Below are positions 5,628-51,958 of a stretch of DNA of 64,000 nt, in pieces. This DNA is from Paenibacillus sp. FSL R5-0766 (GTDB lineage: Bacteria > Bacillota > Bacilli > Paenibacillales > Paenibacillaceae): assembly GCF_037971845.1 (NCBI RefSeq), contig NZ_CP150227.1, positions 1,054,001 through 1,118,000 on the forward strand. The letters run 5' to 3'. Below the pieces are notes generated by a model. It was not told the origin of the DNA and did not search any database. It saw only the letters and a program-made list of their open reading frames with translations. How positions within the stretch are numbered: position 1 is the first letter of the stretch; each line of letters opens with the position of its first letter. The position numbers and the translations under genes are program-made.

Positions 5628-5658
5628 AAAATCAATAGCGTTGTATCATTTCAAATGC

Positions 5659-21401: not shown

Positions 21402-21625
21402 ATAATTGAACTTCATATTTACACAAAAACGGAGAGGACAGAAGGAAGCTGAAGAAGTGAAACTAAAAGCTTTCTGAAAGAAAGCTACTTCGGAAGCATA
21501 CGCTCGCCTTTATCACCGGATTTTCCCAATTAGAAAAGGGATCGAAAAAAATCTGGGGATAACAGCGATCGGAAGCTTATTCTGTCATCGGAGTGGTCAG
21601 TGTAAGTACACTTTTGTTCAATGTA
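21402..21625 (+). repeat. interspersed repeat, copy D (between binding-protein and permease genes)
   Basis: Contains ATTTACAC at the left, ACGGAGAGGACAGAA, the AAAGCTTTCTGAAAGAAAGCT hairpin, TATCACCGGATTTT and AATCTGGGGATAACAGCGAT. The ends are partly eroded (ATAATTGAAC left, TTGTTCAATGTA right). It lies inside the sugar ABC operon, about 35 bp upstream of the malF-like start, in the same orientation as the gene. Confidence 0.8.
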
Positions 21626-35639: not shown

Positions 35640-36653
35640 ATGTATAAAGTAAAGAAAAAGCTATACATTTATGCAGCACTTATTCTGATGATTTCACTAC
35701 TTGCTGGTTGTGCTTCGGGTGGAAGTGCCGAGACAACGAATACGTCCAGCCAAGCTGCAAGCAGCAATGAGAGCAGTAATGAAAGTAATACAACCGCCAG
35801 TGCGACTGAAGATCAGACCCGTGTGATCAAACATGCCATGGGCGAAACCACAATCAAGGGAACCCCGCAAAAGATCGTGACACTGTTCCAGGGTGCAAAT
35901 GATGTCGTTGTTGCACTTGGCGTGAAACCGACAGGCGTGGTGGAATCATGGGTTCAGCAGCCGGTATATGAATATCTGAGAGCAGATCTGGACGGAGTTC
36001 CACAAGTAGGACAGGAATCGCAGCCCAATCTGGAAGAGATCAACAAGTTGAAACCCGACTTGATTATTGCTACGAAGATCAGACATGAAGAGATCTATGA
36101 GCAACTATCACAGATCGCACCAACGGTAGTGACGGAGACCCTGTTTGACTGGAAAGAAACGGTGAAAGTAGCGGGTGAAGCGATGAATATGGTTGAGCAA
36201 TCGGATAAACTGTTGTCTGATTGGGATGGCCGTGTAGCTGATTTCAAAGAGAAAATGGGGGATCGTCTGCCAATTGAAGCAACCATCACGAACTTCAGAG
36301 CCGATCAGGTTCGTATTTTCTACATGGGATACGCAGGTAAAATTCTGAAGGAGCTTGGGTTCACGAGACCTGCGGGACATGACGCAGACACATGGGGAGT
36401 TGAATTGACTTCCAAAGAAAACATTCCGGATATGAATGCAGACATGATCTTCAACTTCAACTCAGGCACAGAAACAGATGCCATCCAGAAAAATTATGAT
36501 GATTGGACCAGCAGTCCACTGTGGAAAAACCTTGATGCAGTCAAGAACAACCAACTGGTTCAGGTCGATGAAGTGGCCTGGAACATGGCAGGTGGATACA
36601 CATCGGCCAACATGATGCTGGACGATTTATATAAGCAGTTCAACCTGAACTAA
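35640..36653 (+). CDS. iron-siderophore ABC transporter substrate-binding lipoprotein
   Basis: 337 residues. The signal ends in the lipobox LAGC. A Ser/Asn/Thr-rich linker (about 28-60) leads to a type III (FecB/BtuF) binding fold: KIVTLFQGANDVVVALGVKPTGV, then VGQESQPNLEEINKLKPDLIIA. It resembles Bacillus YfiY-type receptors for hydroxycarboxylate/schizokinen-type siderophores, though the ligand is not proven. GGGGAG lies upstream of the ATG. It is the first gene of a Fur-box operon with two permeases and an ATPase, and the adjacent biosynthetic cluster likely makes its ligand. Confidence 0.88.
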   Translation: MYKVKKKLYIYAALILMISLLAGCASGGSAETTNTSSQAASSNESSNESNTTASATEDQTRVIKHAMGETTIKGTPQKIVTLFQGANDVVVALGVKPTGVVESWVQQPVYEYLRADLDGVPQVGQESQPNLEEINKLKPDLIIATKIRHEEIYEQLSQIAPTVVTETLFDWKETVKVAGEAMNMVEQSDKLLSDWDGRVADFKEKMGDRLPIEATITNFRADQVRIFYMGYAGKILKELGFTRPAGHDADTWGVELTSKENIPDMNADMIFNFNSGTETDAIQKNYDDWTSSPLWKNLDAVKNNQLVQVDEVAWNMAGGYTSANMMLDDLYKQFNLN

Positions 36654-36665
36654 CTAACAGGAGCA

Positions 36666-36722
36666 GGACCTGCCATGCACCAAGACATTCGTTAACGAAG
36701 TGTATGGGCAGGCAGGTCTTTT
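36666..36722 (+). terminator. hairpin between binding-protein and permease genes
   Basis: GACCTGCC pairs with GGCAGGTC, and inside it ACATTCGTTAACGAAGTGT forms a second stem; TTTT follows. It is a likely partial terminator that gives more binding protein than permease. Confidence 0.65.
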
Positions 36723-36750
36723 ATCATTTTACAGATGAAAGAGTGAGAGT

Positions 36751-37764
36751 ATGTTTCCCCTTTTTACAAAGGCAAGCGCCAAGATCTATGGACTGGCTGG
36801 TTTATTCATATTACTTCTACTTGCTTGCCTAGCCAGTATGATTCTGGGACGTACACATATCACGTTTCAGATGGCATGGGAAGCATTGCAATTCTATGAC
36901 GAGAGTTCTGTGGAACATGTGGTTCTGCTGACGGAACGGTTGCCACGTACAGTTATTGCTGCCGTCGTGGGAGCAAGTCTGGCCGTGGCGGGCGGACTCA
37001 TGCAGGCATTGACACGTAACCCGCTGGCATCACCAAGTGTATTCGGGATCAATGCAGGTGCGATCTTTTTTATTGTCATTGCTATTGTGGTATTGTCCGT
37101 ATCTTCGCTCACTACCATGATGTGGTTTGGTTTTGCCGGAGCTGCGGTTGCCGCGGCGATTGTATACGCACTGGGTTCCCTCGGTCGTGATGGCCTGACA
37201 CCGATCAAAATTGTACTGGCAGGTACGGCTATCTCAGCGTTGTTTGCCTCGTTCACACAGGCCATTCTGGTGTTGGATGGAACCGGATTGCAGGATGTAC
37301 TGTTCTGGCTTGCCGGTTCAGTAAGTGGTCGGACGTTGGATATGTTATATCCTGTTCTGCCGTACATGACAGCCGCAGCCATTGTCTCTCTGTTCATGGG
37401 CAGAGCCATTAATCTGCTCTTGACGGGTGACGATATCGCCAAAGGCATGGGACAGAATGTACTTTTGGTCAAGGTGCTCATGGGAATTGTTACGGTATTG
37501 CTGGCGGGTGGTTCGGTTGCCGTAGCCGGTTCGATCGGGCTCGTCGGTCTGGTTGTCCCACATATCATGCGTGCACTGGTGGGAAATGATTACCGCTGGC
37601 TCGTTCCTTACTCTATTGTAGGGGGAGCGATTCTGCTGTTGTCCGCGGATGTGGTTGCAAGGTTGGTGATCATGCCGCAGGAAGTTCCACTCGGTGTCAT
37701 GACTGCACTGATTGGCGGACCCTTCTTCGTGTATATTGCCCGCAAGGGGGTGACGAAGATATGA
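36751..37764 (+). CDS. FecCD-family iron-siderophore permease (first)
   Basis: 337 residues with about nine to ten membrane helices. Family hallmarks: LTRNPLASPSVFGINAGA (about 88-105), and GSIGLVGLVVPHIMRALVGNDYRWLVPYS (about 258-288), the ATPase-contact region. It overlaps the second permease by four bases. Confidence 0.93.
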   Translation: MFPLFTKASAKIYGLAGLFILLLLACLASMILGRTHITFQMAWEALQFYDESSVEHVVLLTERLPRTVIAAVVGASLAVAGGLMQALTRNPLASPSVFGINAGAIFFIVIAIVVLSVSSLTTMMWFGFAGAAVAAAIVYALGSLGRDGLTPIKIVLAGTAISALFASFTQAILVLDGTGLQDVLFWLAGSVSGRTLDMLYPVLPYMTAAAIVSLFMGRAINLLLTGDDIAKGMGQNVLLVKVLMGIVTVLLAGGSVAVAGSIGLVGLVVPHIMRALVGNDYRWLVPYSIVGGAILLLSADVVARLVIMPQEVPLGVMTALIGGPFFVYIARKGVTKI

Positions 37765-38804
37765 GGAAGGTGTTGACTTTTCGCAACAAAAAAGACACTG
37801 TCTCAGTGCAAATGGAACGAAAATCACTGGTTGTCATCGGTGTATGTATCCTCTTGTTCCTGATGGCAGGAGTGGTCGGTACCAGTGTAGGCAGTGACTT
37901 TATTTCTCCGCTGGATGTGCTCAGAACGATATTTGGTCTGAATGCAGGAGAGCATGACTTCGTCGTGCTGACCTTAAGACTGCCACGGGTGTTATTATCT
38001 CTGCTCGTAGGAGCAGCCCTCGGTATGTCAGGCGCACTTCTGCAAGGCATTATCCGTAATCCGCTGGCCTCACCGGATGTCATCGGCATCACCGGCGGCG
38101 CGGCCGTTGCAGCTGTAGGTTTTGTTACGTTGCTGGGTGGAGCGGTAAGTATCAAGTTGTTGCCATTGTTCGCCATCGCTGGCGCAATTGTGACGGCATT
38201 GATCATCTACGTGCTTGCCTGGAAAAAGGGAGTCAGTCCGATCCGTCTGGTGCTGATCGGAATTGGAGTTTCAGCTATTACCGGAGCCGGAACCACCTTT
38301 ATGCTGATCCTGAGTCCGTTCTACACGGCAGGTCAAGCCTATATCTGGCTGACAGGAAGTGTATATGGAGCATCGTGGACTGATGTCCAAACGATTTTAC
38401 CGGTTATCGTAATCGTTGTACCGCTGGCGATCTGGTTCGCCCGTAGTCTGAATGCACAGGAGTTCGGGGATGATCTGGCTACGGGATTGGGTGTTACCGT
38501 TCAACGGCATCGTTCGGCGTTGTTGTTATGCAGTGTATTGCTGGCGGGAATCGCCGTTGCGGTTGCCGGAACCATTGGTTTTGTAGGCCTGATCGCTCCA
38601 CATATTGCCCGAAAGCTGGTTGGACGGATGTTTGGCAGTATGCTGATTGTGTCTGGACTGGTTGGTGCTCTGCTTGTATTTGTGGCAGATCTGATTGCCC
38701 GCACTGCCTTTCTGCCGCTTGATGTTCCCGCAGGGGTATTCACCGCAGGCGTAGGAGCACCGTTTTTCCTGTATTTGTTGTTCAAGAATCGAAATCAGTT
38801 TTGA
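37761..38804 (+). CDS. FecCD-family iron-siderophore permease (second)
   Basis: 347 residues. RLPRVLLSLLVGAALGMSGALLQGIIRNPLASPDVIGITGGA and GTIGFVGLIAPHIARKLVG are typical FecCD motifs. A start overlapping the first permease stop (ATGA) shows translational coupling. It would form a heterodimer with the first permease. Confidence 0.93.
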   Translation: MRKVLTFRNKKDTVSVQMERKSLVVIGVCILLFLMAGVVGTSVGSDFISPLDVLRTIFGLNAGEHDFVVLTLRLPRVLLSLLVGAALGMSGALLQGIIRNPLASPDVIGITGGAAVAAVGFVTLLGGAVSIKLLPLFAIAGAIVTALIIYVLAWKKGVSPIRLVLIGIGVSAITGAGTTFMLILSPFYTAGQAYIWLTGSVYGASWTDVQTILPVIVIVVPLAIWFARSLNAQEFGDDLATGLGVTVQRHRSALLLCSVLLAGIAVAVAGTIGFVGLIAPHIARKLVGRMFGSMLIVSGLVGALLVFVADLIARTAFLPLDVPAGVFTAGVGAPFFLYLLFKNRNQF

Positions 38805-38817
38805 GGAGGAGAGAGCT

Positions 38818-39639
38818 GTGAGTATTCTGGAAGCCAAGGAGCTTACGATCTCCTATGGAGCAGATCCCATTATTGAAAATTTGAACCTGACCATTCCCAA
38901 GGGACAGATTACCGTCCTGATTGGCAGCAACGGCTGTGGTAAATCTACGCTGCTGCGTACGATGGCTCGGTTGCTGAAATCCAGCTCCGGTTCGGTGCTG
39001 CTGGATGGCGAAGAGATTGCAAAGCTGCCGACCAAGGAAATTTCAAGACGCATGTCCATCCTGCCACAAGGTCCCACTGCTCCGGAGGGCCTGACGGTGA
39101 ACCAACTGGTTAAGCAAGGACGTTATCCACATCAAACATGGCTGAAGCAATGGTCTCGTGAGGATGAGCGCATGGTTAAGCTGGCACTTGAATCCACACA
39201 TCTGACTGACCTAGCGGATCGGCCTGTGGATGCACTGTCTGGTGGACAGCGTCAGCGTGCCTGGATTGCGATGACACTTGCGCAGGGTACCGAAACGCTG
39301 CTGCTGGATGAACCTACAACCTATCTGGATATGACACATCAGATTGATATCCTTGATCTGTTGTTTGAGTTGAACGAACGAGAAGGACGCACGATTGTCA
39401 TGGTACTTCATGATCTGAATCTGGCATGTCGTTATGCGCATCACATTGTGGCTGTTCACAACAAGTCGATCTACGCAGAAGGTAAACCGGAAGATATTGT
39501 TACACAGGACATGGTCCGTAAAGTCTTCCAGATGGAGTGTGAGATTGCAGTTGATCCACTCTTTGGCACACCAACCTGTATCCCGCACGGACGGGGAAGG
39601 AAGCTGAATGGGGAACAGCGTTATACACAATTGGCTTGA
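38818..39639 (+). CDS. iron-siderophore ABC transporter ATPase
   Basis: 273 residues from GTG 38818 (GAGGAGAGA upstream). Walker A is GSNGCGKST (about 38-46), the signature is LSGGQRQRAW (about 140-149), Walker B is LLLDEPTTYLD (about 161-171), and the switch His is in MVLHDLNLACRYA. It belongs to the FecE/FhuC group and closes the uptake operon. Confidence 0.94.
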   Translation: MSILEAKELTISYGADPIIENLNLTIPKGQITVLIGSNGCGKSTLLRTMARLLKSSSGSVLLDGEEIAKLPTKEISRRMSILPQGPTAPEGLTVNQLVKQGRYPHQTWLKQWSREDERMVKLALESTHLTDLADRPVDALSGGQRQRAWIAMTLAQGTETLLLDEPTTYLDMTHQIDILDLLFELNEREGRTIVMVLHDLNLACRYAHHIVAVHNKSIYAEGKPEDIVTQDMVRKVFQMECEIAVDPLFGTPTCIPHGRGRKLNGEQRYTQLA

Positions 39640-39854: not shown

Positions 39855-39919
39855 TTGACAATATAACTCGAATTGCCATAAAATAGATTTTATATGATAT
39901 TGATAATCATTATCAATAT
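39855..39919 (+). promoter_or_regulatory. promoter and perfect-palindrome Fur box of the siderophore biosynthesis operon
   Basis: TTGACA at 39855-39860 and TAAAAT at 39879-39884 (18-bp spacing) form the promoter. Centred at 39908 is TGATAATCATTATCA extended by ATAT arms to a perfect 11-1-11 inverted repeat (39897-39919). This is the classical 7-1-7 Fur box, lying over the expected transcript start. It is strong evidence that the following operon is iron-repressed. Confidence 0.88.
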
Positions 39920-39953
39920 TAAATTACAATAAAAATTGATGAACGTATGAGCA

Positions 39954-40181
39954 ATATAAGTTGAATTAATCATTTACATGCAACGGAGAGGACAGAAAAA
40001 ACCTGAAAAAGCGAAGCTAAAAGCTTTCTGCAAGAAAGCTGCATCGTAAGCATAAGCTTCGCCTTTATCACCGGATTTCCCCTTTGAATAAGGGATTCAA
40101 AAAATCTGGTGATAACAGCGATCGGAAGATGGTTCTGACCGCGCAGTGGTTTCGTGTAAAAGCAGTTATTCAACTTATATA
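39954..40181 (+). repeat. interspersed repeat, copy E (leader of siderophore operon)
   Basis: 228 bp with ends TATAAGTTGAA and TTCAACTTATATA. It has the AAAGCTTTCTGCAAGAAAGCT hairpin, TATCACCGGATTT and AATCTGGTGATAACAGCGATCGG blocks. It lies between the Fur box and the first gene, so it is transcribed as a 5' leader. The right end is 38 bp before the GTG start. Confidence 0.85.
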
Positions 40182-40218
40182 GGAGCCAGTACCTTCATTC
40201 GATCGAGGAGGATTTTCA

Positions 40219-41235
40219 GTGTTTCCGAAAGGGATTCATAATCTGCAAAACCGACTCATTATAAGCAAAGCGAGAGAAATGGGCATCACCTGTGAGCCAC
40301 TTCTTGAGGGATGCGAAGATTTCCTGAAGCTGTCTGTAGGGGACCAAGAGATCATCATTAACAAAACCAGATCTCATCGTCTGCCGTTAATCGCTGGACT
40401 GCTCGCGAAGAACAAGCAGGCATGTAATATGTTGTTGCATGAACAGGGCATGCCTGTACCATCATTTATCGTGATCCCGGAGATGGGGAGCGAAGCAGTA
40501 GCTTTTCTGAATAGATACGGCTCCATTGTGGTTAAACCGCTGGATGCGAGCAGCAGCATGGGCGTGACGTTGGATGTGCGTACCGCAGATGAACTGAAGG
40601 CAGCCATTCGTCTTGCGAGTGTCCACGGCAGCAGCATTATGTTACAGCAATATGTGAACGGGATCGATTATAGAGTGCTGATCATCAACGGAGAAGTGGC
40701 GGCTGTGAACCAGTATCGGCCTGTCTATGTTGAGGGAGACGGAACTTCAACCGTTTGGGCGTTAATTGAGCAGTTGAATCAGGAACGAATCGAGATGACA
40801 CCCATTGGCGAGTATGAAGCGTTTCCCGAGGTTAATGCAGAAAAGGAACGACTGCTCGAGGTACTACATGCACAAGGGACAACACTGGATGAAGTTCCTG
40901 CCGCGGGAAAAGAAATCGAATTATACGATCTCCGCAATTCTGCCGCCGGAAAAATCAGTGAATTCTACAAGGATTGTACCGAAATCATTCATCCCGAAAA
41001 TGCCCGAATGATCATTCAGGCGGCAAAGACTCTTCAGATCGATGTAGCAGGAGTTGATGTTCGTTGTCGTGATATCCGCACCCCGATCTCCAGAGATCAG
41101 GGAGGCATCCTGGAAGTGAACGCCTTGCCAGATCTGACACACCACGTCTTTCCTCATGGTGGAACAACTCGTGATGTGGTTCGGTTATACCTGGAATATC
41201 TGTGTCAGGAGCAACTTGAATATAAAGAAATATAG
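40219..41235 (+). CDS. ATP-grasp ligase of the siderophore cluster
   Basis: 338 residues from GTG 40219 (GAGGAGGA seven bases upstream). ATP-grasp fold close to the cyanophycin-synthetase/glutathione-synthetase group. Nucleotide-binding GSIVVKPLDASSSMGVTL is at about 95-112, then IMLQQYVNGIDYRVLIINGEVAAVNQYRPVYVEGDG. Metal ligands lie near the C-terminus in GILEVNALPDLTHHV. Such enzymes form amide bonds with an acyl-phosphate intermediate. It is first in an iron-repressed operon but absent from the staphyloferrin B and achromobactin sets that I know. It may add an amino acid to the siderophore or make a precursor dipeptide. Confidence 0.78.
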   Translation: MFPKGIHNLQNRLIISKAREMGITCEPLLEGCEDFLKLSVGDQEIIINKTRSHRLPLIAGLLAKNKQACNMLLHEQGMPVPSFIVIPEMGSEAVAFLNRYGSIVVKPLDASSSMGVTLDVRTADELKAAIRLASVHGSSIMLQQYVNGIDYRVLIINGEVAAVNQYRPVYVEGDGTSTVWALIEQLNQERIEMTPIGEYEAFPEVNAEKERLLEVLHAQGTTLDEVPAAGKEIELYDLRNSAAGKISEFYKDCTEIIHPENARMIIQAAKTLQIDVAGVDVRCRDIRTPISRDQGGILEVNALPDLTHHVFPHGGTTRDVVRLYLEYLCQEQLEYKEI

Positions 41236-41408
41236 CTTATAACAACGTATAGATGACAAGTTATAACGGATAACAGATGACGAATACCATCATTTAATTC
41301 GGACCTCACCATGATTTTGAACCAATACCATTTCACATACAAAATGCAGAACAAGAAACACAGGCAGCAGGTTCAGCCTGAATCGATTATAAGGAGCGTT
41401 AGAGGGCT

Positions 41409-42764
41409 ATGTCAGTAGAGGTGCAGACGGAATATCTGAAGATGCAAAATGAGAAGGAATCCAATGCAAGATCGTACCCCAGACATTTCCCGCTTGTCAT
41501 TAACAAGGCCCATGGGGTGAAGATTACCGATACGGAAGGCCGCGTATTCTACGACTGCTTGGCTGGTGCAGGAACATTGGCGCTGGGGCATAACCATGAC
41601 ACGGTGGTCAACGCCATTCGCGATGTGCTGGATCAGCAGATTCCGCTTCATACACTGGATCTGGCAACACCGCTGAAGCTTTCATATATGCAAGAACTAT
41701 TCTCCATTCTTCCGGCAGAGATGCGAGACAAAGCCAAAATCCAGTTCTGTGGTCCAACGGGGGCCGATGCAGTAGAAGCAGCCATTAAGCTGGTCAAACA
41801 TGCTACAGGTGGCAAGTCTATTCTTGCCTTTCAGGGAGGTTATCACGGTTCGACCCAAGCGACAATGTCGATGAGTGGCAACCTGAGCAAGAAACAACAT
41901 CTGCAAAGCCTGCTGCCCGATGTTCATTTCCTGCCTTTTCCTTATGAATACCGTTGCCCATTTGGTGTTGGTGAAGGCATGACGGCCCGGTTAAGCGCAC
42001 AGTATATCGAGAACTTGCTCGATGATTGCGAGAGCGGTATTGCGGCACCGTGTGGGGTCATTGTGGAGACGGTGCAGGGTGAAGGTGGAGCCATTCCGGC
42101 AGATATCGAATGGCTGAGGGAGCTGCGGCGAATCACAGCAGAGCGAAGCATTCCACTCATCATCGATGAAGTGCAGACAGGCATCGGACGGACAGGGCGA
42201 ATGTTTTCGTTCGAACATGCCGGGATTGTACCTGATGTAATCATCTGCTCCAAAGCGGTTGGCGGAAGTCTGCCCATGTCTGTTGTCATCTATAAGGAAG
42301 AGCTGGATCAATGGCAACCTGGTGCACACACAGGCACGTTCCGTGGCAATCAACTAGCCATGGCAGCGGGACTTGCGACACTTCGTTATATTCGGGAACA
42401 GGATGTTCTACACAATGTGCATCTGCGCAGTGAGCAGTTCATGAATCAACTGAATGCATTGAAAGAGCGATATGTAGAGATCGGTGATGTGCGGGGCAGA
42501 GGGTTGATGATTGGTGTTGAGGTGGTTGATCCAATGGGACGCAAGGATCGTCTGGGACATTATCTGCCTAATGGTGCGCTGGCTGAGTCTATTCAGCGTG
42601 AATGTTTCAAGAATGGATTAATTGTAGAACTGGGCGGGCGTCATTCAGCGGTTGTTCGTTTTTTGCCGCCGCTGAATATTACGGAGCAAGAATCGGGTGC
42701 AATCCTTGCGATCTTTGAGAAATCGGTAGCTGAAGCGATTGCCTTAGCAACAGCCGCATGCTGA
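41409..42764 (+). CDS. diaminobutyrate-2-oxoglutarate-type class III aminotransferase (AcsF-like)
   Basis: 451 residues, class III PLP aminotransferase. Gly-rich FYDCLAGAGTLALGHNH near the N-terminus; IIDEVQTGIGRTGRMFSFEHAG with the PLP-ring Asp; the Schiff-base Lys at about 282 in ICSKAVGGSLPMSV; GTFRGNQLAMAAG. This profile fits L-2,4-diaminobutyrate:2-oxoglutarate aminotransferases, which make Dab from aspartate semialdehyde. In achromobactin synthesis AcsF does this. It would supply the diamine unit here in place of the SbnA/SbnB diaminopropionate route. The stop overlaps the MFS start. Confidence 0.85.
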   Translation: MSVEVQTEYLKMQNEKESNARSYPRHFPLVINKAHGVKITDTEGRVFYDCLAGAGTLALGHNHDTVVNAIRDVLDQQIPLHTLDLATPLKLSYMQELFSILPAEMRDKAKIQFCGPTGADAVEAAIKLVKHATGGKSILAFQGGYHGSTQATMSMSGNLSKKQHLQSLLPDVHFLPFPYEYRCPFGVGEGMTARLSAQYIENLLDDCESGIAAPCGVIVETVQGEGGAIPADIEWLRELRRITAERSIPLIIDEVQTGIGRTGRMFSFEHAGIVPDVIICSKAVGGSLPMSVVIYKEELDQWQPGAHTGTFRGNQLAMAAGLATLRYIREQDVLHNVHLRSEQFMNQLNALKERYVEIGDVRGRGLMIGVEVVDPMGRKDRLGHYLPNGALAESIQRECFKNGLIVELGGRHSAVVRFLPPLNITEQESGAILAIFEKSVAEAIALATAAC

Positions 42765-44191
42765 AGCTTTCCCTGATGAAGAGGCATGCAGTATTACTCG
42801 CGATTCTGATCGGTGCCTTTTCGCTGGTACTGACCAACAGTGCATTTAACCTGCTGCTGCCTTATTTTGTGCAATATTATCAGATCTCTACGACAGCAGG
42901 CGGATGGATCATCGCGCTGTACATGCTGGCTATGACGTTAACGATGCCGCTGGCTTCCCTGATTGTGGACCGACTGGGGCGTAAGCAGACGTATATGTTG
43001 GGCATCAGTATCTATGGACTGTTCTCGGTAGCAGGTGCGTTGTTTTATCACTCTATTGAGGTACTGTTGCTGGTTCGTTTCATGCATGGCGTTGCCGCGG
43101 GGCTGATGATTCCGTTATCCCTTGTGCTGTTGTTTGATGTATACGGACCAGAGGTGCGAGGACGAATTACAGGAGCGTGGGGCTTGCTGCTTATGTTGGC
43201 TCCGGCTGCCGGGCCAACGCTGGGTGGCTTCATCATTCAGTATGGACGACTTGAAATGCTGTTTTGGCTTAATGTGCCGCTGGCTATATTCTCGTTCATC
43301 GGGTGCGGTCGAGTCATTCAGACCTATATCCCTGCCCGCAGGAAAAAATGGCATCCAACCAGTGTCATGCTGCTGATCTGTGCGGTAGGTGCCCTTAGTC
43401 TGGGAGTACAGTTGTACGCAAGTCCTGTCGTGGCAGTATGGGTACCTTGGCTGCTGATTGCGCTCGGTGTGGTGCTGCTCATTCGTTTTGTCCAGACAGA
43501 GAACGGTCGGAAGGAACCACTTATCCGGTACCAGTTGCTGCGACGTAATGCCGTCTTTCCGCTGACCGTATTGATCTCGACGATTCAGGATTGTGTCATG
43601 TTTGGCGTGATCTTTGCATTGCCGTTATTGTTCCAGGACGTCTTCCACCTGTCACCGGCCCTGTCCGGTGCACTGTTCATTCCCTTATCAATCTGTACAA
43701 GTCTATTCATGTGGATTGGCGGCAGCTTGCTGGATCGTGGTCGGTCCATACATTTTATCGCATGGGGGACGTTGCTGGTGTCGATATCGATCTTGTCGTT
43801 TGCAGTTCTGCCCATGGGAGCATCGATCTGGATCATCGGGATGCTCATGGCGTGCCGCGGAATTGGCGTTGGTCTGTCAGGCATGAGTATCTCTGCGATT
43901 GGCCTGCAAGCATTACCGGACGAAGACATGCATGAAGGGTCGGTATTATCGACCACAATTGAGCGGCTCGCTTCTTCGTTTGCAGTGATGGGCTTGACCC
44001 TGTATTACGATATGCGTTGGCAATGGCTTGCCGGGGCAGGAACGTCCATGGAGATGGCAAAATGGGGAGCACTCAAAGAAATCTGTATCGGACTTGGCTG
44101 CGCCATACTGCTTACACTTCCCCTGGTCTTACTTATAACCCGAAAGAAGGTTGGCATCATTGTTCGAGATGGAAAACAAGCTCCGGTCTGA
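42758..44191 (+). CDS. MFS exporter of the siderophore cluster (SbnD/YhcA-like)
   Basis: 477 residues with about 14 membrane helices (DHA2-type). Conserved loop: ASLIVDRLGRKQTYMLG after helix 2, and GAWGLLLMLAPAAGPTLGGFIIQYGRLEMLFWLNVP (motif C, drug/H+ antiport). It lies inside the biosynthetic operon, overlapping its neighbours, so export of the finished siderophore is the natural role. Confidence 0.88.
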   Translation: MLKLSLMKRHAVLLAILIGAFSLVLTNSAFNLLLPYFVQYYQISTTAGGWIIALYMLAMTLTMPLASLIVDRLGRKQTYMLGISIYGLFSVAGALFYHSIEVLLLVRFMHGVAAGLMIPLSLVLLFDVYGPEVRGRITGAWGLLLMLAPAAGPTLGGFIIQYGRLEMLFWLNVPLAIFSFIGCGRVIQTYIPARRKKWHPTSVMLLICAVGALSLGVQLYASPVVAVWVPWLLIALGVVLLIRFVQTENGRKEPLIRYQLLRRNAVFPLTVLISTIQDCVMFGVIFALPLLFQDVFHLSPALSGALFIPLSICTSLFMWIGGSLLDRGRSIHFIAWGTLLVSISILSFAVLPMGASIWIIGMLMACRGIGVGLSGMSISAIGLQALPDEDMHEGSVLSTTIERLASSFAVMGLTLYYDMRWQWLAGAGTSMEMAKWGALKEICIGLGCAILLTLPLVLLITRKKVGIIVRDGKQAPV

Positions 44192-45956
44192 GGCTGAGCA
44201 GCAGGCCCATGAACATTCATGCAAACTGCTGCTGAACTGTTACATCCGTGAGCTTGCGCTAGAGAAGGAAAACGACATTCGGATCAATTCAAATACGCTG
44301 ACGTACGCTGTTGCTTTTCAAGCCAGCGGGGTGACGGTGACAGGACGTTTGTCTTATTACTCTGCCATGGGGGAGCATGAATACCTCAGCATGGAATCTG
44401 GCGGGGAAGCGGTGCATTATGGCGACTTGGTACGTTGGATCACATGTGAGCTAAGTGGAGATGGAGCACAGGGAGCGAGTTCGGATCAACATGGAATGAA
44501 GAAAAGTGTGATGGAAATGAAGCGTTCACTTGAGCTGGAGAATGTACATCCATTGGATCAGAATACGTATCATGTAGAGGCGGCGTATGCCAAAGATTTT
44601 GCACAAAAGGTAGATAACAGTGTGGGCAACCTCACGTTGTATATCGAACAAGCAGCTGGTCTCGACATCCACGACTACTGTACATCTGAACAGTCACTGT
44701 TGTATGGTCATCCGTTCCATCCGTTCCCGAAGAACACCAAAGGCTTCAGCAAGCAGGATGTACAGAAGTACAGTCCGGAGTTACGGACATCGTTTCAACT
44801 CTGTTATATCGCCGTGAGGCAGGATGTCTACGTGCAGGAATGGGTGGATGATGAGGCGGTAATGGATTTGCATGATCTCCTGCGGAGCCATGTGGAGCCT
44901 ATTTTAAAAGAAAAAAGTGAAATGTATGGGCTACTGCCTGTCCATCCATGGCAATATGCGTACATATCACGGTTGACCGAGGTACAGTCTTATCTTCGAG
45001 ATGAAAAACTAATCTTACTCGGCAGTGCGGGGCCAATCGTCTATCCGACTTCTTCGGTTCGTACAGTTTATGTTCCCGAATGGAACTGCAATATCAAGCT
45101 GTCACTGAATATGCAGATCACGAACATGATTCGCACCAACAGTGCTGAGCAGATGCACAGAACACTAGATGCCTCCAGATACGTCAGGCAGCATGGCTGC
45201 TTCGGTGCTGAACCGAACACACATATTGCGTATGAGACGGGTGTAGCGACTTGTGCTTTTGAAAATGAAGAGTTAACCAGTCTGTTTACGATAGCTTATC
45301 GGCCCATTGAGTTTGATGTTGAGCATACGTATGTCTTATCCAGTCTGGTTGAAGCACCACTTCCCGGGATGCGTTCTAGGTTGATGACGATGCTGGGTGG
45401 TGGACGTGACATTGCCGAGCGTTGGCTGGAACGATATCTGGCATGTTCGCTGCTGCCGATTGTACGGGCGGCGGGAGAGAAAGGTATTCATTTTGAAGCT
45501 CATTTACAGAATACCCTTGTGACCTTAAAGGATGGGTTGCCTGTTGAGTTTATCGTCCGCGATCTGGAAGGGGTCAGTGTGGATGAGGAACTTATAAGTG
45601 AGCAGGATCGTGCTGCGTCCGATTTATTATTTTATTCGGGAGAGAAAGCCTGGGCGCGGACTTCTTACTATTTTATCGTCAATCATCTGGGTTCTCTAAT
45701 TCATGCCATGGCGCGAGATGTGAACGTATCCGAGGAGCATTTCTGGAAACAGGTACGTGAGGTACTTGTAGATGAACTGGAACGAACGGGCAATGCTTAT
45801 GTGCAACATCTGCTGACAACGGATGCTTTTCTGGCCAAACAAAACTTGGTGAGTTGTCTAAGAGGGATCAGCCAGACCCCGGCCTACGTGCCGGTGAGCA
45901 ATGTAATGAAACGAATGGGGAGTGAAGTACGTGGGAGTCGTGGGATACAGGGCTGA
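44151..45956 (+). CDS. IucA/IucC-type NIS siderophore synthetase 1 (SbnE/AcsD-position)
   Basis: Up to 601 residues. The start is uncertain between TTG 44151, TTG 44160 and ATG 44169; all overlap the MFS gene. NIS synthetase domains: ATP-binding YGHPFHPFPKNTKGF (about 184-198), YSPELRTSFQLCYIAVRQDV, LLPVHPWQYAY, SSVRTVYVPEWNCNIKLSLNMQITNMIR, and the C-terminal FhuF-like part with GIHFEAHLQN. These enzymes adenylate a carboxylate (citrate for type A) and condense it with an amine. Its position directly after the exporter matches SbnE, which couples citrate to the diamino acid; assignment to type A is by synteny. Confidence 0.88.
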   Translation: MASLFEMENKLRSEAEQQAHEHSCKLLLNCYIRELALEKENDIRINSNTLTYAVAFQASGVTVTGRLSYYSAMGEHEYLSMESGGEAVHYGDLVRWITCELSGDGAQGASSDQHGMKKSVMEMKRSLELENVHPLDQNTYHVEAAYAKDFAQKVDNSVGNLTLYIEQAAGLDIHDYCTSEQSLLYGHPFHPFPKNTKGFSKQDVQKYSPELRTSFQLCYIAVRQDVYVQEWVDDEAVMDLHDLLRSHVEPILKEKSEMYGLLPVHPWQYAYISRLTEVQSYLRDEKLILLGSAGPIVYPTSSVRTVYVPEWNCNIKLSLNMQITNMIRTNSAEQMHRTLDASRYVRQHGCFGAEPNTHIAYETGVATCAFENEELTSLFTIAYRPIEFDVEHTYVLSSLVEAPLPGMRSRLMTMLGGGRDIAERWLERYLACSLLPIVRAAGEKGIHFEAHLQNTLVTLKDGLPVEFIVRDLEGVSVDEELISEQDRAASDLLFYSGEKAWARTSYYFIVNHLGSLIHAMARDVNVSEEHFWKQVREVLVDELERTGNAYVQHLLTTDAFLAKQNLVSCLRGISQTPAYVPVSNVMKRMGSEVRGSRGIQG

Positions 45957-47913
45957 AGCAGGCGGCAGGACAGAAGCAGTCTACGTGGGTGTACAGGAAC
46001 GGATCATGCGGCAGACGTTGGAGGCGATGTGGTTCGAAGGCATTCTGGACAGTCATGTAAGTGGGAGCGAATGGCGAACCGAAGGACTTACATCGTCAGG
46101 AAAACCTGTGGCGTACACGTGTGAAGCCGAGCAGAAGTTTTCATTTGGTCGGGTGAAGGTGAAGAAGGGTTCGATCCAAAGAGAAGGCGTACTCTGCACC
46201 GATCTGGATCTGTTTTTGGAGGAAATTGTGCTGAACGCTTTGAAGGGTGCAAATGTGACAGCTTTTATCCAGGAACTGCTCGAAACGATGGCAAAGGACA
46301 GCCAGTGCCAAGCTATATTGCCCTTGAACATTCCGAGTGAAGATCGACATTATGATGCGCTCGAAAGTCATATGACTGACGGTCATCTGTACCACCCGAG
46401 CTACAAGTCGAGACTGGGATTTTCTCTGAAAGACAATCTGGCCTATGGCCCGGAATTTAACTCAGAGGTTGCATTAATCTGGGTGGCTGTGAAAAAAGAA
46501 TTTGCTCAGACCGCTGTATCCGCAGGGTATAGCTCTGAAAAACTGGTGGGGCAACATCTGACCGTAGAGGATATGCAGCGATTTCAACAGATCCTGCAAC
46601 AACAAGGTCGTGCGGACATGGGCGAAAACGTCAACGCATATGCGACGAGTGCAGATCAGCTTGAGAGCAGTGCCGAGGTTGGTGAAATAACAGCTGTTCA
46701 AGATAGCTCAATAGGCTCTATCGTTGGCAGCAAAGACAGCAAGGTGGATGGGGAAATGGGAGGTTCTGACGCGGATGATCGCTATGTGTTCATTCCAGTT
46801 CATCCATGGCAGTGGGAGCATCAGTTGGAGTCGGTATATGCCCGTCAACGGATGGATGGGGACATCGTGTATCTTGGACTATCGTCTTCGCCCTATCGTG
46901 CGCAGCAGTCGATCCGTTCACTCTCGAACCGGATAAATCCGGAAGCCCCTTACATCAAGCTGGCCCTCAGTATTACCAACACGTCGAGTACGCGCATTCT
47001 GGCACAGCATACAACCCAGAACGCACCGCTGATCAGCGATTGGCTGGAAGAACTCATTCGTGAAGATGAGCTGTTGCAGCAGGTGCAGTTTGGCATTTTA
47101 AAAGAAATCATGGGACTGTCATTTCGTTATGAGCAGTTGCCTGCAACCCAATATGGACGGGCCTACGGTACACTCGGTGCCATCTGGCGGGAGAATGTTT
47201 CTGTTCACCTGAAGCAAGGTGAGACGGCATGGCCGCTGAATGCGTTGATGTTGGTGCAGCCCAATGGTGTTCCGTTTATCCAGGATGCTGTAGAACGACA
47301 TGGTGTGGAAAAGTGGAGCGAGGCCCTTGTTCGCACAGTTACACTGCCGATTATTCATCTACTCTATGCACACGGGATTGCGCTGGAATCTCATGCTCAG
47401 AATATCATTTTGGTACTGGAAGATGATTTGCCTAAACGAATCATTATCAAGGACTTGCATGATGGCGTTCGCTATGTACCAGATCAACTGTTACACCCGG
47501 AAAGGGCACCGAAGCTGAACCCAGAGCCGGAAACCCATCGCAAGTTCAATCGGTATTCCTTCATCTATGCGGGAGATGTGTCGGAAGTCCGTGACTATAC
47601 ATATGATGCATTCTTTTTTATCTGTATGACGGATATTGCGCTGGCTTTGGAGAAGTTTGGGTTGTCGGAGGAAGCGTTCTGGCAGCTGTGCGCAGGTGTG
47701 ATTGTGGATTATCAGCGAGAGCACCCGGAGTACGAAGAGCGATTCGCTGCATATGACCTTTTTGCCGAAGATGCACTGATCGAAGAGATGACAAAGCGCC
47801 GTCTGTATGGGGATGGAGAGTTATATTTCCGCAAAGCGAGCAATCCGCTCAAGATATCAAAGGATTTACTTGAATCAAAGAGAACACCCGAATTAAAGGG
47901 AATCGTCGAATGA
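45922..47913 (+). CDS. IucA/IucC-type NIS siderophore synthetase 2 (SbnF-position)
   Basis: 663 residues from GTG 45922, overlapping synthetase 1; a later ATG at 46006 is an alternative start. Motifs: LYHPSYKSRLGFSLKDNLAYGPEF, FIPVHPWQWEHQL, RSLSNRINPEAPYIKLALSITNTSSTRIL, and the C-terminal GIALESHAQN ... IIIKDLHDGVRY. A Ser/Asp/Gly-rich insertion of about 58 residues precedes HPWQ (46609-46782) and makes the protein longer than its two relatives. Expected to add a second diamine/carboxylate unit. It overlaps the aldolase gene by four bases. Confidence 0.88.
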   Translation: MKYVGVVGYRAEAGGRTEAVYVGVQERIMRQTLEAMWFEGILDSHVSGSEWRTEGLTSSGKPVAYTCEAEQKFSFGRVKVKKGSIQREGVLCTDLDLFLEEIVLNALKGANVTAFIQELLETMAKDSQCQAILPLNIPSEDRHYDALESHMTDGHLYHPSYKSRLGFSLKDNLAYGPEFNSEVALIWVAVKKEFAQTAVSAGYSSEKLVGQHLTVEDMQRFQQILQQQGRADMGENVNAYATSADQLESSAEVGEITAVQDSSIGSIVGSKDSKVDGEMGGSDADDRYVFIPVHPWQWEHQLESVYARQRMDGDIVYLGLSSSPYRAQQSIRSLSNRINPEAPYIKLALSITNTSSTRILAQHTTQNAPLISDWLEELIREDELLQQVQFGILKEIMGLSFRYEQLPATQYGRAYGTLGAIWRENVSVHLKQGETAWPLNALMLVQPNGVPFIQDAVERHGVEKWSEALVRTVTLPIIHLLYAHGIALESHAQNIILVLEDDLPKRIIIKDLHDGVRYVPDQLLHPERAPKLNPEPETHRKFNRYSFIYAGDVSEVRDYTYDAFFFICMTDIALALEKFGLSEEAFWQLCAGVIVDYQREHPEYEERFAAYDLFAEDALIEEMTKRRLYGDGELYFRKASNPLKISKDLLESKRTPELKGIVE

Positions 47914-48686
47914 GAAGGAACACGCTGAAGGAAAAAATTGCACGCAAACAGCCAGTTTATGGCCTTTTTGTATCCATACCGCACCCGGTCATCATTGAGA
48001 TGATCGGACATGCGGAATATGACTTTGTCATTATTGATCTGGAACATGCCGCAACATCCATGGAATCGGTGGAAGAGTTGATCAGGGCGGCGGAACTGGT
48101 CGGCCTAACCCCGTTGGTACGTATCTCGAAGGTGGAGCGAGCAGAGATTCTTAAAGTGCTGGACTGTGGTGCACAAGGCATCGTCATTCCGCATGTCGAG
48201 CAACTGGAGCAGGTGGAAGAAGCGGTTCGTCACGCCTACTACCATCCGGTTGGCACGCGGAGCTTGAATAGTGGTCGTCCCGGTGTATTTGGGAAATATC
48301 CGCTCACGGGATACATTGGGGAAGCGAACCAACAGGTGATGGTTGTACCCATGATCGAAAGTGTGGAGGGCGTGCGGCAAAGTGCACAGATTCTGTCTCA
48401 CCCTCAGGTGAGTTTTGTATTGGAAGGGGCGGCGGATCTGTCGCAATCCCTCGGTGTGCCATGGCAGACGGAGCACCCGGATGTGAGACGTGCACTGGAT
48501 GAATTGCATGCTACCGCTCGGCAGTGCAAAGTACCTTATGCAACGGTCACCAGAGGTGTGGAGGATATGTCGCTTTGGGCTGAGCGGGGAGTACATATAT
48601 ACGTGCTTGGTGATGATCGGAATACGGCGTTTCGGGCATATGCGCAAAAACGGAATGACTACAGGAATGCGGGTGGGCAGATATGA
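47910..48686 (+). CDS. HpcH/HpaI-aldolase-type citrate synthase (SbnG/AcsB-like)
   Basis: 258 residues, a TIM-barrel metal-dependent aldolase. Visible motifs: FVIIDLEHA (about 38-46), PLVRISKVERAEILKVLDCGAQGIVIPHV with the substrate Arg, PMIESVEGV, and LEGAADLSQSLG. In staphyloferrin B, SbnG condenses oxaloacetate with acetyl-CoA to give citrate dedicated to the siderophore, independent of the TCA cycle. Its place between the NIS synthetases and the decarboxylase agrees exactly with sbnFGH. Four-base overlaps on both sides show tight coupling. Confidence 0.85.
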   Translation: MRRNTLKEKIARKQPVYGLFVSIPHPVIIEMIGHAEYDFVIIDLEHAATSMESVEELIRAAELVGLTPLVRISKVERAEILKVLDCGAQGIVIPHVEQLEQVEEAVRHAYYHPVGTRSLNSGRPGVFGKYPLTGYIGEANQQVMVVPMIESVEGVRQSAQILSHPQVSFVLEGAADLSQSLGVPWQTEHPDVRRALDELHATARQCKVPYATVTRGVEDMSLWAERGVHIYVLGDDRNTAFRAYAQKRNDYRNAGGQI

Positions 48687-50104
48687 AACCTAGTGTATGG
48701 CATACAATTGATGAACTACAACGCGGAATGGAAGATCCGGTATGTGCTTACGTCTATGATCTGGCTGGCATTCAGGAACAGGTACATCAGATGTTGGACA
48801 GCATGCCTGGGAACACACAGTTGTTCTACGCCATTAAGGCGAATCCTGATCCGCGGATCATTGAGGCGTTGCTTCCATTGGTGAAGGGATTTGAAGTGGC
48901 TTCGATTGGAGAGCTACTCAAGGTTAGAGCGGTAAGTCGTGAGGTTCCGATTCTGTTTGGAGGTCCGGGTAAAAAGGAGAGCGAGCTGCGGCTGGCGATC
49001 GAGCATGGCGTGAGCTACATCCATGTGGAAAGTTTGCTGGAGCTGCGGCGGATCATTGCGATTGCGAAAGAAAGAGAGAAGGAGCATGGGCAGGCGCAGG
49101 TACAGGAGAACAGGCAGAAGCAAGAATGGGAGCAGAAACCGGAGCAGAGATATACGCAAGCATACGGCGAGGAACTGATGCAAGAGCAGAAGCAAAAACA
49201 GGATCAAGAAAATGAGCCGAAACACAAGCAACAACAGAAGCAAGCGCAGGAGGTGCGCATTCTTCTTCGAATCAATCTGCGAAGCAGTACGTTACCCCGG
49301 ACGAAGATTGTCATGGGTGGTGGGCCGAGTCCTTTTGGAATCGATGAAGAGGCGGTGGAAGAAGCCATTGAACTCATTCGTGTGGAAGGCGCGGGTGTGG
49401 TTCGGTTAAGCGGGTTCCATTTTCACTCCTTGTCCAACAATATGGATGCAAGGCTGCACGCCGAGATGATCGAGTTGTATTTGCAAAAGGTGGAACAGTG
49501 GCAGCAACAGTATGATCTTCCTGTGGAAGTGGTGAATGCAGGAGGTGGGTTCGGTGTTACGTATGATGGCAGCCCCGGATTCGACTGGCCCTTGTTCACT
49601 TCCCTGCTGGAGCAAAGTGAAGCCAGAGAGCGCCTTGCTTCCCGCGGAGGTCAGCTGTATTTTGAATCGGGTCGACTGCTGGTGGCAGACCACGGGTATT
49701 ACGCAGCAGAAGTTACGGATATCAAAACCTCTCATGATCAGTATTTTGCCGTGTTAAGGGGAGGTACGCACCACAATCGTCTGCCTGCTTCATGGGGCCA
49801 TAACCATCCGTTTCAGATTATGGTGACGGACCGTTGGAAGCATTCATTTGCCCGGCCAGAGGTAAGAGGTCATCGAGTCCATATCGTAGGTGAGCTATGC
49901 ACACCCAAAGATCGCATGCATTCTGATGCGGAGGTAGCACTGCTGCGCGTGGGAGATATTGTTTTGTTTGAAAAGTCTGGCGCTTATTGCTGGACCATCT
50001 CGCATCATGATTTTCTGGGGCATCCGCACCCGGCATTCCATTATCTAACGGAGGACAATAATCATGTCAACACTGATGAAGCGTTCCAGTCTGCAAGCCG
50101 CTGA
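48683..50104 (+). CDS. PLP-dependent fold-III decarboxylase (SbnH/AcsE-like) with Gln/Lys/Glu-rich insertion
   Basis: 473 residues of the LysA/ornithine-decarboxylase fold. The PLP Lys is at 52 in FYAIKANPDP; later motifs are HFHS, NAGGGFGV, FESGRLLVADHGYYAAEV and the active-site Cys/Asp region ELCTPKDR. Residues about 131-189 form a low-complexity insertion made mostly of Gln, Glu and Lys (49073-49249), placed before VRILLRINLR; relatives lack it and are about 400 long. SbnH decarboxylates the citryl-diamino acid intermediate and AcsE a serine-derived unit. The substrate here is probably a citryl-Dab intermediate. It overlaps synthetase 3 by 41 bp. Confidence 0.85.
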   Translation: MKPSVWHTIDELQRGMEDPVCAYVYDLAGIQEQVHQMLDSMPGNTQLFYAIKANPDPRIIEALLPLVKGFEVASIGELLKVRAVSREVPILFGGPGKKESELRLAIEHGVSYIHVESLLELRRIIAIAKEREKEHGQAQVQENRQKQEWEQKPEQRYTQAYGEELMQEQKQKQDQENEPKHKQQQKQAQEVRILLRINLRSSTLPRTKIVMGGGPSPFGIDEEAVEEAIELIRVEGAGVVRLSGFHFHSLSNNMDARLHAEMIELYLQKVEQWQQQYDLPVEVVNAGGGFGVTYDGSPGFDWPLFTSLLEQSEARERLASRGGQLYFESGRLLVADHGYYAAEVTDIKTSHDQYFAVLRGGTHHNRLPASWGHNHPFQIMVTDRWKHSFARPEVRGHRVHIVGELCTPKDRMHSDAEVALLRVGDIVLFEKSGAYCWTISHHDFLGHPHPAFHYLTEDNNHVNTDEAFQSASR

Positions 50105-51911
50105 ACGCCGGATTATGGCGGATCTGATAAATTCATTTTTGTCGGAGCAATTACTCCCACTGGAGGATTACCCATTCATTGATTTTGCTACGGCACCTGC
50201 ACCGTTCCGTCGATTGTACAAGGGATATGACAGCGAAGAGCTTAATCAGAATGTAGCTTCTCGCTACAGATTACACACTCAAGGTGTACTGTGTCTGGTT
50301 GAAGAAGGGGTGAGACAGGGGATTCAGTGGGTCCAGGGTTCACCGATCTATGAGGAGAAAACAGATGGAAGCTGGGTTCTCCTTGATTCTCCGGCTGAGG
50401 TTGGACGTGCGGTGTTACAGAGGGCTTTGTCGGATGAGGCCTATGCGCAGCCCGGAGTGGCGGAGTTTCTTGCTAGTCTGGACATTGCTGTGGAGCAGTA
50501 TGCTCTGGGCTGGGAACAAGTCCAGTATCTGTCCGCCAACGTCCCGGCTTCTGCTTATAAGTGGTTTATCAAAGGTGAACGTGTTGCGGCATTGCGGGAT
50601 CGTCCATTTCACCCATCGTCCAAAGCCAAGGTGGGATTCAACCCAGAAGATGTAACACGGTATGCAGCAGAATTCGGGAAGACGATTTCGCTGCGCTGGG
50701 TAGCTATACGGCTGGATGCCGTGCAGCAAGGGTGTGAAGATGGATTGTCCATTTTGGATGTGTTAAGCGATATTCAGCGTGGAGTAGTAGAAGCCGAGTT
50801 TGCCAAAAAAGGGATCACGTTGGACGAATATCTGCCGATGCCTGTTCATCCGTGGCAATTGCAGCATGTGATTCTGCCTCGCTTTACTGGAGAGATCGAA
50901 GAGGGTAGCCTTATTGTTTTGGATGTAGAAGTGGGTGACGTACAGGCCACATCCTCTCTGCGCTCGATGGCTCCGTCAACCAAGTCCACTCGGATGCTCA
51001 AACTTCCGGTTAGTGTGCTGTCGCTAGGGGCAGCTCGCTATCTTCCAGTAGTCAAACTTCTGAATGGTCTTGCTGGAGAACGGATGCTAAGGCAAGCTGT
51101 TGCTTGTGACGAGACGTTGAAGCACAAGGTGTATATGTGTGAAGAACAGAACTGGTGGGGTTTCATGCCGGAATCCATGGGACTATTCGATGATCATCCC
51201 CGGCATCTGGCTGCACAGATTCGTGTGTATCCCACTGAGTTGCTGAATGAAGCCTACAAAGTCATTCCAATGGCCGCACTGGGTGTGAATCTGGAAGGGC
51301 ATCATCTATTAACGGATATTCTGGGGGAAAACCTGAGCAGCACGGATGTTCTCGAGTTCTATACCAGTATAGCTACGACGTTTTATGATATCGTGATGCG
51401 TCTGTTCAAGGTGGGCGTTGTGCCTGAGATTCATGGTCAGAACTGCTGTCTGGTGTTACGGGATAATCAGGTAAAAGGTCTTTTGTTCCGGGATCATGAT
51501 TCCGTGCGTTTGCATCAGCCTTATCTGGACAAACATGGTATTGCAGACCCTGCCTATCATATTCGCCCGGGCTACTCGAATAGCCTGTATAACGAGACGA
51601 TTCAGAAGCTGATTTTCTATGTGCAGTCTTTGGGGACGCAGGTGAATCTGGCTGCGATCATGGAGGCACTTAGCGAAGTGTATCACATCCCGGAAACGAA
51701 GTTATTGGAGATCACAGAGCAGGCTTGGAAGGAAGCGCTGCAACATGTGCAGCTTCCCGAATCTGACCGGGCCGCGCTAGCTCATGCGATATTCGAGAGC
51801 AGGGAGTGGCCCGTGAAGTTAGTTGTCCGTCCGCTGCTTGAAGCGGATGGGGTGCCTGGCGCGATGCCATCGGGCAAAGGCATAGGGTGGAACCCTTTTT
51901 ACAAGGGATAG
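50064..51911 (+). CDS. IucA/IucC-type NIS siderophore synthetase 3 (SbnC/AcsA-like)
   Basis: 615 residues from ATG 50064 with GGAGGA upstream, inside the decarboxylase gene. Motifs: RPFHPSSKAKVGFNPEDVTRYAAEFG, LPMPVHPWQLQHVILPRF, MAPSTKSTRMLKLPVSV, and the C-terminal VPEIHGQNCCLVL and LLFRDHDSVRLH. In staphyloferrin B the corresponding SbnC joins alpha-ketoglutarate to the amine end and finishes the molecule; that role is inferred here. It is the last gene of the operon and is followed by a terminator. Confidence 0.88.
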   Translation: MSTLMKRSSLQAAERRIMADLINSFLSEQLLPLEDYPFIDFATAPAPFRRLYKGYDSEELNQNVASRYRLHTQGVLCLVEEGVRQGIQWVQGSPIYEEKTDGSWVLLDSPAEVGRAVLQRALSDEAYAQPGVAEFLASLDIAVEQYALGWEQVQYLSANVPASAYKWFIKGERVAALRDRPFHPSSKAKVGFNPEDVTRYAAEFGKTISLRWVAIRLDAVQQGCEDGLSILDVLSDIQRGVVEAEFAKKGITLDEYLPMPVHPWQLQHVILPRFTGEIEEGSLIVLDVEVGDVQATSSLRSMAPSTKSTRMLKLPVSVLSLGAARYLPVVKLLNGLAGERMLRQAVACDETLKHKVYMCEEQNWWGFMPESMGLFDDHPRHLAAQIRVYPTELLNEAYKVIPMAALGVNLEGHHLLTDILGENLSSTDVLEFYTSIATTFYDIVMRLFKVGVVPEIHGQNCCLVLRDNQVKGLLFRDHDSVRLHQPYLDKHGIADPAYHIRPGYSNSLYNETIQKLIFYVQSLGTQVNLAAIMEALSEVYHIPETKLLEITEQAWKEALQHVQLPESDRAALAHAIFESREWPVKLVVRPLLEADGVPGAMPSGKGIGWNPFYKG

Positions 51912-51925
51912 ATATAGAACAGAGA

Positions 51926-51958
51926 AGGTGACCCGGTTGACGGGTTGCCTTTTTGGTT
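51926..51958 (+). terminator. terminator of the siderophore operon
   Basis: AGGTGACCCG and CGGGTTGCCT pair with a TTTTT tail right after. Confidence 0.75.

Follow-up and report, generated by a model that had tools for sequence, protein, structure and literature searches.

A 64,000-nucleotide stretch of the genome of the soil bacterium Paenibacillus sp. FSL R5-0766 (contig NZ_CP150227.1, positions 1,054,001 to 1,118,000; hereafter the window) carries an eight-gene operon that is probably repressed by Fur and probably makes and exports a citrate-based siderophore of the NRPS-independent (NIS) type (NRPS, nonribosomal peptide synthetase). This siderophore would be built by a diaminobutyrate (Dab) route, with one amide bond added by an ATP-grasp ligase that resembles cyanophycin synthetase (CphA). 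The open reading frame (ORF) list and family profile searches place eight co-directional genes on the plus strand at 40219-51911, where a preliminary description of this DNA had also placed them:

40219..41235, plus strand: CphA-like ATP-grasp ligase, 338 aa, GTG start (profile and family searches, residue alignment)
41409..42764, plus strand: AcsF-type diaminobutyrate--2-oxoglutarate transaminase, a class III aminotransferase (above curated cut-off)
42758..44191, plus strand: major facilitator superfamily (MFS) exporter, DHA2-like, in the SbnD position (profile search)
44151..45956, plus strand: NIS1, SbnE-like type A synthetase, IucA/IucC family (profile, structure match, tree)
45922..47913, plus strand: NIS2, SbnF-like synthetase, IucA/IucC family (SbnF model 482.8 bits, cut-off 900)
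47910..48686, plus strand: SbnG-like HpcH/HpaI protein, putative citrate supply (best PDB match 4tv5, E 2e-59)
48683..50104, plus strand: SbnH-like pyridoxal phosphate (PLP) decarboxylase, Orn/DAP-type (best PDB match 6knh, E 2.3e-100)
50064..51911, plus strand: NIS3, SbnC-like synthetase, IucA/IucC family (SbnC model 382.5 bits, cut-off 700; 7cbb, E 1.7e-82)

The genes had been described as eight tightly overlapping ones. This applies to the last seven, whose overlaps are 4-41 bp long if the start positions of the ORF list are used, while 173 bp separate the end of the ATP-grasp gene from the start of the aminotransferase gene. With three PF04183 genes above the cut-off, the window qualifies as a NIS siderophore cluster. 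These three are the only ones found in the genome, a single contig of 7.0 Mb, in which the NRPS condensation domain has 37 matches.

The window resembles the staphyloferrin B (sbn) clusters, also found in Paenibacillaceae (L084, L087), with which it shares the order MFS-E-F-G-H, a C-like synthetase and an SbnE-like type A synthetase. Relatives of the SbnE/F/C-type synthetases, SbnG and SbnH are all present, with the SbnF and SbnC models scoring below their strict cut-offs. The sbnDEFGH-like order noted earlier is recovered, and the SbnC-like character of the final gene holds as a resemblance (382 bits with the SbnC model against a cut-off of 700). The structures 4tv5, 6knh and 7cbb we take to be SbnG, SbnH and SbnC, respectively. 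The window differs from the staphyloferrin B clusters in having AcsF instead of SbnA/SbnB, in the added ATP-grasp gene and in the position of the C-like gene, which is last here and presumably third in the S. aureus sbn order. The aminotransferase matches the NCBIfam diaminobutyrate transaminase model NF005393 with 727.5 bits, above the curated cut-off of 671. Across the genome, no SbnA was found above its curated cut-off (best 251.7 bits vs 349.95), with sub-cut-off matches of this type present in 14/14 control genomes, and no SbnB above its own (best E 8.6e-4). The claim that an AcsF-like enzyme stands in for absent SbnA and SbnB is thus borne out by these searches. According to a passage of PMC3179956, Dab replaces diaminopropionate (Dap) in achromobactin and AcsF may be the enzyme that makes it.

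The achromobactin (acs) clusters of Sodalis pSG1 (L104) and Thalassospira (L052) share with the window AcsF, three synthetases, AcsB-like and AcsE-like genes, an MFS gene and FecBCD-type import genes. However, the first synthetase of the window is not AcsD-like, its gene order is different and the ATP-grasp gene is added. In Thalassospira marina, a single 924-aa frame (L052:4702-7476) fuses an SbnH/AcsE-like part with AcsF, of which the record annotates the AcsF part only. The cluster is neither staphyloferrin B proper, as judged by SbnA/SbnB, nor achromobactin proper, as judged by AcsD; it is best described as a NIS cluster that would follow the logic of the two and has a ligase of its own. 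The hybrid core is not peculiar to the window cluster. Genes of the IucA/IucC family occur in 82 of 245 Paenibacillaceae genomes searched, comprising all 33 genomes with the ligase and 49 without it, and 20 sister loci were fetched from among the latter. Three of these (L082, L083, L092) have the same seven genes in the same order (AcsF-MFS-E-F-G-H-C) but lack the ligase, are followed by import genes and have an exporter of 32% mean identity. A similar locus (L080) yielded no AcsF and no separate H gene in a frame scan, its last synthetase lying in a 1095-aa frame. The set SbnA-SbnB-E-F-G-H-C is present in L084 and L087, whereas two F-like synthetases accompany SbnA/SbnB in L075, L090 and several more loci. 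A further group (L077, L085, L088) has AcsF, three synthetases and, close to the last of these, an RraA-like gene, for which only L085 was scanned, and the frame scan of these three loci found no SbnG-like or SbnH-like gene.

The nearest solved structures to NIS1 are IucA (105 bits) and AcsD (92 bits), and its matches to the SbnF and SbnC models are weak (about 70-74 bits). It retains motifs that align with those of AcsD and IucA, such as GHPFHPFPK, PTSS, SLN...ITN, HLQN and RDLEG, which presumably line the active site. Trees were built on chosen representatives, with 81 rows by a quick method, 26 rows by a careful one, and 23 and 17 rows for NIS2/NIS3. In the 81-row tree, NIS1, NIS2 and NIS3 of the ligase clusters each form one fully supported group. 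In the 26-row tree, NIS1 of the ligase clusters is one clade (100/100) within an SbnE-like clade (100/99), and five AcsD/PvsD rows fall outside the latter. The Sodalis AcsD reference row is soundly labelled, as it matches AcsD 2w02 over its full length with 862.7 bits. An assignment of NIS1 as a serine-using AcsD enzyme was therefore rejected. Furthermore, the type A synthetases of the sampled AcsF-bearing Paenibacillaceae clusters form one clade (100/99) inside the SbnE-like clade. Together with the position of NIS1, this nested sub-clade supports a Dab version of staphyloferrin B chemistry, as proposed in the preliminary description. The tree can be read as a single move of an SbnE-type enzyme from Dap to Dab clusters, with a later arrival of the ligase. 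NIS2, which matches the SbnF model (483 bits, below the strict cut-off of 900) and AsbB, forms a window clade unplaced between SbnF and the achromobactin enzyme. In the NIS3 tree, achromobactin groups weakly (84/86) with the Dab clusters and the window clade.

The reactions catalyzed by the operon are all inferred from known pathways. Citrate would be supplied by the SbnG-like enzyme and Dab by AcsF. NIS1 would couple citrate with Dab, as SbnE does with Dap, after which the SbnH-like enzyme may decarboxylate the intermediate. NIS2 would attach a further Dab, as SbnF does, and NIS3 would attach 2-oxoglutarate, as SbnC does. The expected product of these steps is a staphyloferrin B analogue based on Dab, or a compound intermediate between staphyloferrin B and achromobactin. 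The CphA-like ATP-grasp enzyme would activate a carboxylate as an acyl phosphate and form one further amide bond. Its partner might be an amino acid or a diamine arm, joined on or before the siderophore core. No product of such a cluster was found in the open-licence literature, where a paper behind subscription could have been missed.

The ligase is a stand-alone protein, unlike CphA, which combines ATP-grasp with Mur-ligase domains. It scores 217.6 bits with the CphA model against a curated cut-off of 877, and its size, this score and its aspartate-binding residues set it apart from cyanophycin synthetase (CphA1). In an alignment of the window sequence with 47 of 102 homologous proteins (n=48), the ATP, Mg and acceptor-carboxylate residues K66, K106, R152, D280, E299 and N301 are invariant (48/48). 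The conserved catalytic residues predict that the protein belongs to the ATP-grasp carboxylate-amine ligases. Most of the residues contacting aspartate and cyanophycin are altered. The positions of CphA1 H267, E215, R323, S396 and R458 are mostly changed, and N394 is mostly kept (38/48).

The preliminary description had treated the ATP-grasp gene as an extra. This stands with respect to the staphyloferrin B and achromobactin sets but overlooks a NIS precedent, the vibrioferrin-type operons with an ATP-grasp of another subfamily. The pvsABCDE-type operons (L103, L105, L106, L107) share with the window an ATP-grasp gene that precedes the synthetases, an MFS gene and a type III PLP decarboxylase. 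They differ in having the other-subfamily ATP-grasp PvsA, two synthetases, no AcsF and an AcsD-like PvsD. Two of these operons are carried by Vibrio plasmids, one by a Cupriavidus plasmid and one by a Pantoea plasmid; the ATP-grasp of the Pantoea operon, in which an aldolase gene is first, is annotated as PvsA. The three pvs-type ATP-grasps that were scanned belong to another ATP-grasp subfamily, a BLASTP comparison of one of them with the ligase gave no significant match, and hhalign of the PvsA type with the ligase (probability 27%, E 0.00068, 103 columns) indicated superfamily-level likeness. The ligase was therefore rejected as a PvsA orthologue, and its recruitment in Paenibacillus looks independent of PvsA, as judged from sequence. 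A passage of PMC4431377 counts siderophore ligases among the peptide-bond-forming ATP-grasps and cites vibrioferrin work. Two other papers (PMC5577590, PMC6836290) assign an ester-forming role to PvsA, and the former describes the enzyme functions as untested.

The ligase is tightly linked to NIS genes within the family. ATP-grasp matches were obtained in 38 of the 245 genomes, of which 33 are stand-alone genes; the other five, with E values of about 1e-32 to 1e-35, fall within frames 618-949 aa long, the size of cyanophycin synthetase, and were not counted. In all 33 genomes with the stand-alone ligase, it lies a few kb from PF04183 genes. This count is based on 20 loci fetched and annotated, the window and seven named loci, and five loci assessed by position (G038, G049, G139, G210, G244). 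Nine named loci with the ATP-grasp gene, all from Paenibacillus, stop before NIS3 and make up, with the window and the 20 fetched loci, a set of 30 annotated loci (window, L004-L012, L055-L074). Apart from L073, in which frames overlap abnormally, these loci keep the order ATP-grasp, AcsF, (MFS), NIS1, NIS2, G, H, NIS3. A wider search took in the class and the phylum, with 398 genomes each, the two sets overlapping one another and the family set; matches in frames of 714-1026 aa were set aside (6 of 25 and 33 of 37 matching genomes, respectively). Five stand-alone relatives from outside the family remained. Two of them, G325 (51%) and G602 (45%), preserve the eight-gene order and also have a Fur box, several G325 genes being split into two frames. 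In the other three (G343, G363, G373; 40-43%), which belong to a single genus of another family, the gene has no NIS cluster next to it, and the IucA/IucC genes of these genomes lie on different contigs. These lone relatives are 335-337 aa long (L128:5820-6833, L129, L130:5899-6906), and the neighbours in L128 resemble housekeeping genes by eye. The source of one relative with 45% identity (P0087) bears a Bacillus name. The NIS linkage is thus tight in the closer ligase clade but does not extend to the most distant stand-alone relatives seen, which are a possible source of the siderophore ligase.

Iron control is suggested by the sequence ahead of the first gene. The following elements were found there and behind the last gene:

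39855..39884, plus strand: promoter-like TTGACA-18-TAAAAT, 11/12 consensus bases (consensus match only)
39901..39915, plus strand: perfect 7-1-7 Fur box, TGATAATCATTATCA, 0 mismatches
39952..40186, no strand assigned: repeated element of ~235 bp resembling a miniature inverted-repeat transposable element (MITE), in the leader between the Fur box and the first start codon (inverted ends, RNA fold, genome copies, empty site in L010)
51922..51954, plus strand: terminator-like hairpin of 14 pairs after the last gene (hairpin scan)

The perfect Fur box and promoter of the preliminary description are thereby recovered, the promoter as a consensus match. Shuffled sequence gives a mean of 0.43 Fur-box matches per window even when up to two mismatches are allowed. 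All 30 annotated loci have a Fur box with no more than two mismatches close to where the ATP-grasp frame begins (18 perfect, 8 with one and 4 with two mismatches), as do the two further NIS-linked loci outside the family (G325, G602), which adds up to 32/32 NIS-linked loci. Control of the operon by a Fur-type regulator is supported by this conserved predicted site. Promoter and terminator matches across the region are not commoner than chance (17 vs 15.2 and 10 vs 9.4 in shuffles, respectively).

Whether the pathway changed upon arrival of the ligase was addressed by taking, for each gene, 8-11 ligase-bearing and 2-3 ligase-free Dab clusters and computing the ratio of between-group to within-group distances. 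The ratio is 1.84-2.04 for AcsF, SbnG, SbnH and the three synthetases, 1.14-1.55 for two import proteins and 2.92 for the exporter. The exporter value, compared with that of the enzymes, fits a changed product; a replaced exporter would fit as well. A special divergence of NIS1 at the arrival of the ligase was rejected, its ratio (1.95) falling inside the range of the other enzymes. Tentatively, and with slightly less than even confidence, the product may represent a new structural class, a Dab analogue of staphyloferrin B with an amide-linked unit from a cyanophycin-synthetase-derived ATP-grasp. ATP-grasp ligases would then have been recruited into NIS assembly twice independently, here and as PvsA, with the exporter of the window altered accordingly.

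Other explanations lead to different products. The ATP-grasp enzyme might be a passenger whose own function, perhaps that of a dipeptide or storage ligase, is co-regulated by iron but lies outside siderophore assembly, the siderophore then being a plain Dab analogue of staphyloferrin B. The seven-gene sister clusters do without the ligase, a relative of it stands alone in three genomes, and all synthetases are of ordinary divergence, as expected of a passenger. However, the ligase gene opens the operon after the Fur box in 32/32 NIS-linked loci, across 44-95% ligase identity, the exporter changed along with it, and the vibrioferrin-type operons offer a parallel case, which makes a passenger role unlikely. 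Ordinary achromobactin, with NIS1 acting on serine like AcsD, AcsF providing the Dab arms and the ATP-grasp being incidental, would account for the presence of AcsF, AcsB-like, AcsE-like and three synthetase genes, as in Sodalis L104, and for the modestly supported grouping of NIS3 with achromobactin and Dab clusters. In the NIS2 tree, the achromobactin rows join L082 and L083 (93/88), not clearly the window NIS2. This explanation is improbable given that NIS1 lies in the SbnE-like clade, outside the AcsD/PvsD rows, and that the ATP-grasp gene is constant in the operon type (33/33). Staphyloferrin B itself, with Dap from elsewhere, would match the enzyme set SbnC, D, E, F, G, H, but is hardly credible with neither SbnA nor SbnB above the cut-off in the genome and a Dab aminotransferase within the operon.

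Several observations weigh against the proposed Dab pathway with an integrated ligase. NIS1 shows no special divergence of the kind that might be expected had the ligase changed its substrate, and the MFS gene is absent from its place in 5/30 loci (L058, L059, L060, L072, L073). The lone relatives in three genomes indicate that the ligase family is not tied to siderophores throughout. With regard to the trees, the 81-row tree carries a long-branch warning, and the nesting of the AcsF-bearing type A clade among synthetases of SbnA/SbnB clusters has moderate support (88/87 to 96/93). In addition, the label SbnE-like derives from genome context, namely clusters with SbnA/SbnB, the tree containing no characterised SbnE; the SbnE-like row of L084 is about equidistant from IucA (139.9 bits) and AcsD (135.2 bits). 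If the proposed pathway is correct, the operon provides a defined, deletable and assayable route to an undescribed Paenibacillus siderophore, and an example of a siderophore assembly line swapping a building block (Dap to Dab) and gaining an unrelated ligase. The Paenibacillaceae clusters keep the Dap, Dab and Dab-plus-ligase states side by side, so that the order of events could be tested on enzymes.

The MITE-like element in the leader is an insertion and no part of the siderophore pathway, although it may influence expression of the operon. It has inverted ends (TATAAGTTGAA) and an RNA fold with z -4.9, matches at least 42 places in its own genome (40 of 219 candidates scored), and has further window copies at about 5658-5887 and 21428-21597. 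It is present in 9/10 aligned loci, with an empty site in P. amylolyticus (L010). A known RNA regulator in the leader was rejected, as an Rfam scan of the window at gathering scores gave no match and the structure is that of the repeated element.

FhuF-like ferric reductase genes lie beside the synthesis genes in L070 (3781-4578) and L085 (12581-13426), with similar frames noticed by eye in L059 and L064; none was seen at the corresponding place in the window. Directly upstream of the operon and on the same strand lies one further group of genes:

35640..39639, plus strand: probable ferric-siderophore import genes, namely binding protein 35640-36653, permeases 36751-37764 and 37761-38804, and ATPase 38818-39639 (sequence, annotated homologues in L052)

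Homologues of these import genes are upstream on the same strand in 20/30 loci, with the full set of four in 16 and the first three only in 4, and are divergent, partial or not found in the other 10. Finally, the SbnH-like (48683-50104) and NIS2 (45922-47913) genes contain length-variable insertions in the P. xylanexedens group. The SbnH-like insertion of the window is by eye a Q/K/E-rich stretch with no clear tandem repeat on a repeat check, in a protein of 473 aa compared to ~400 aa in distant relatives.

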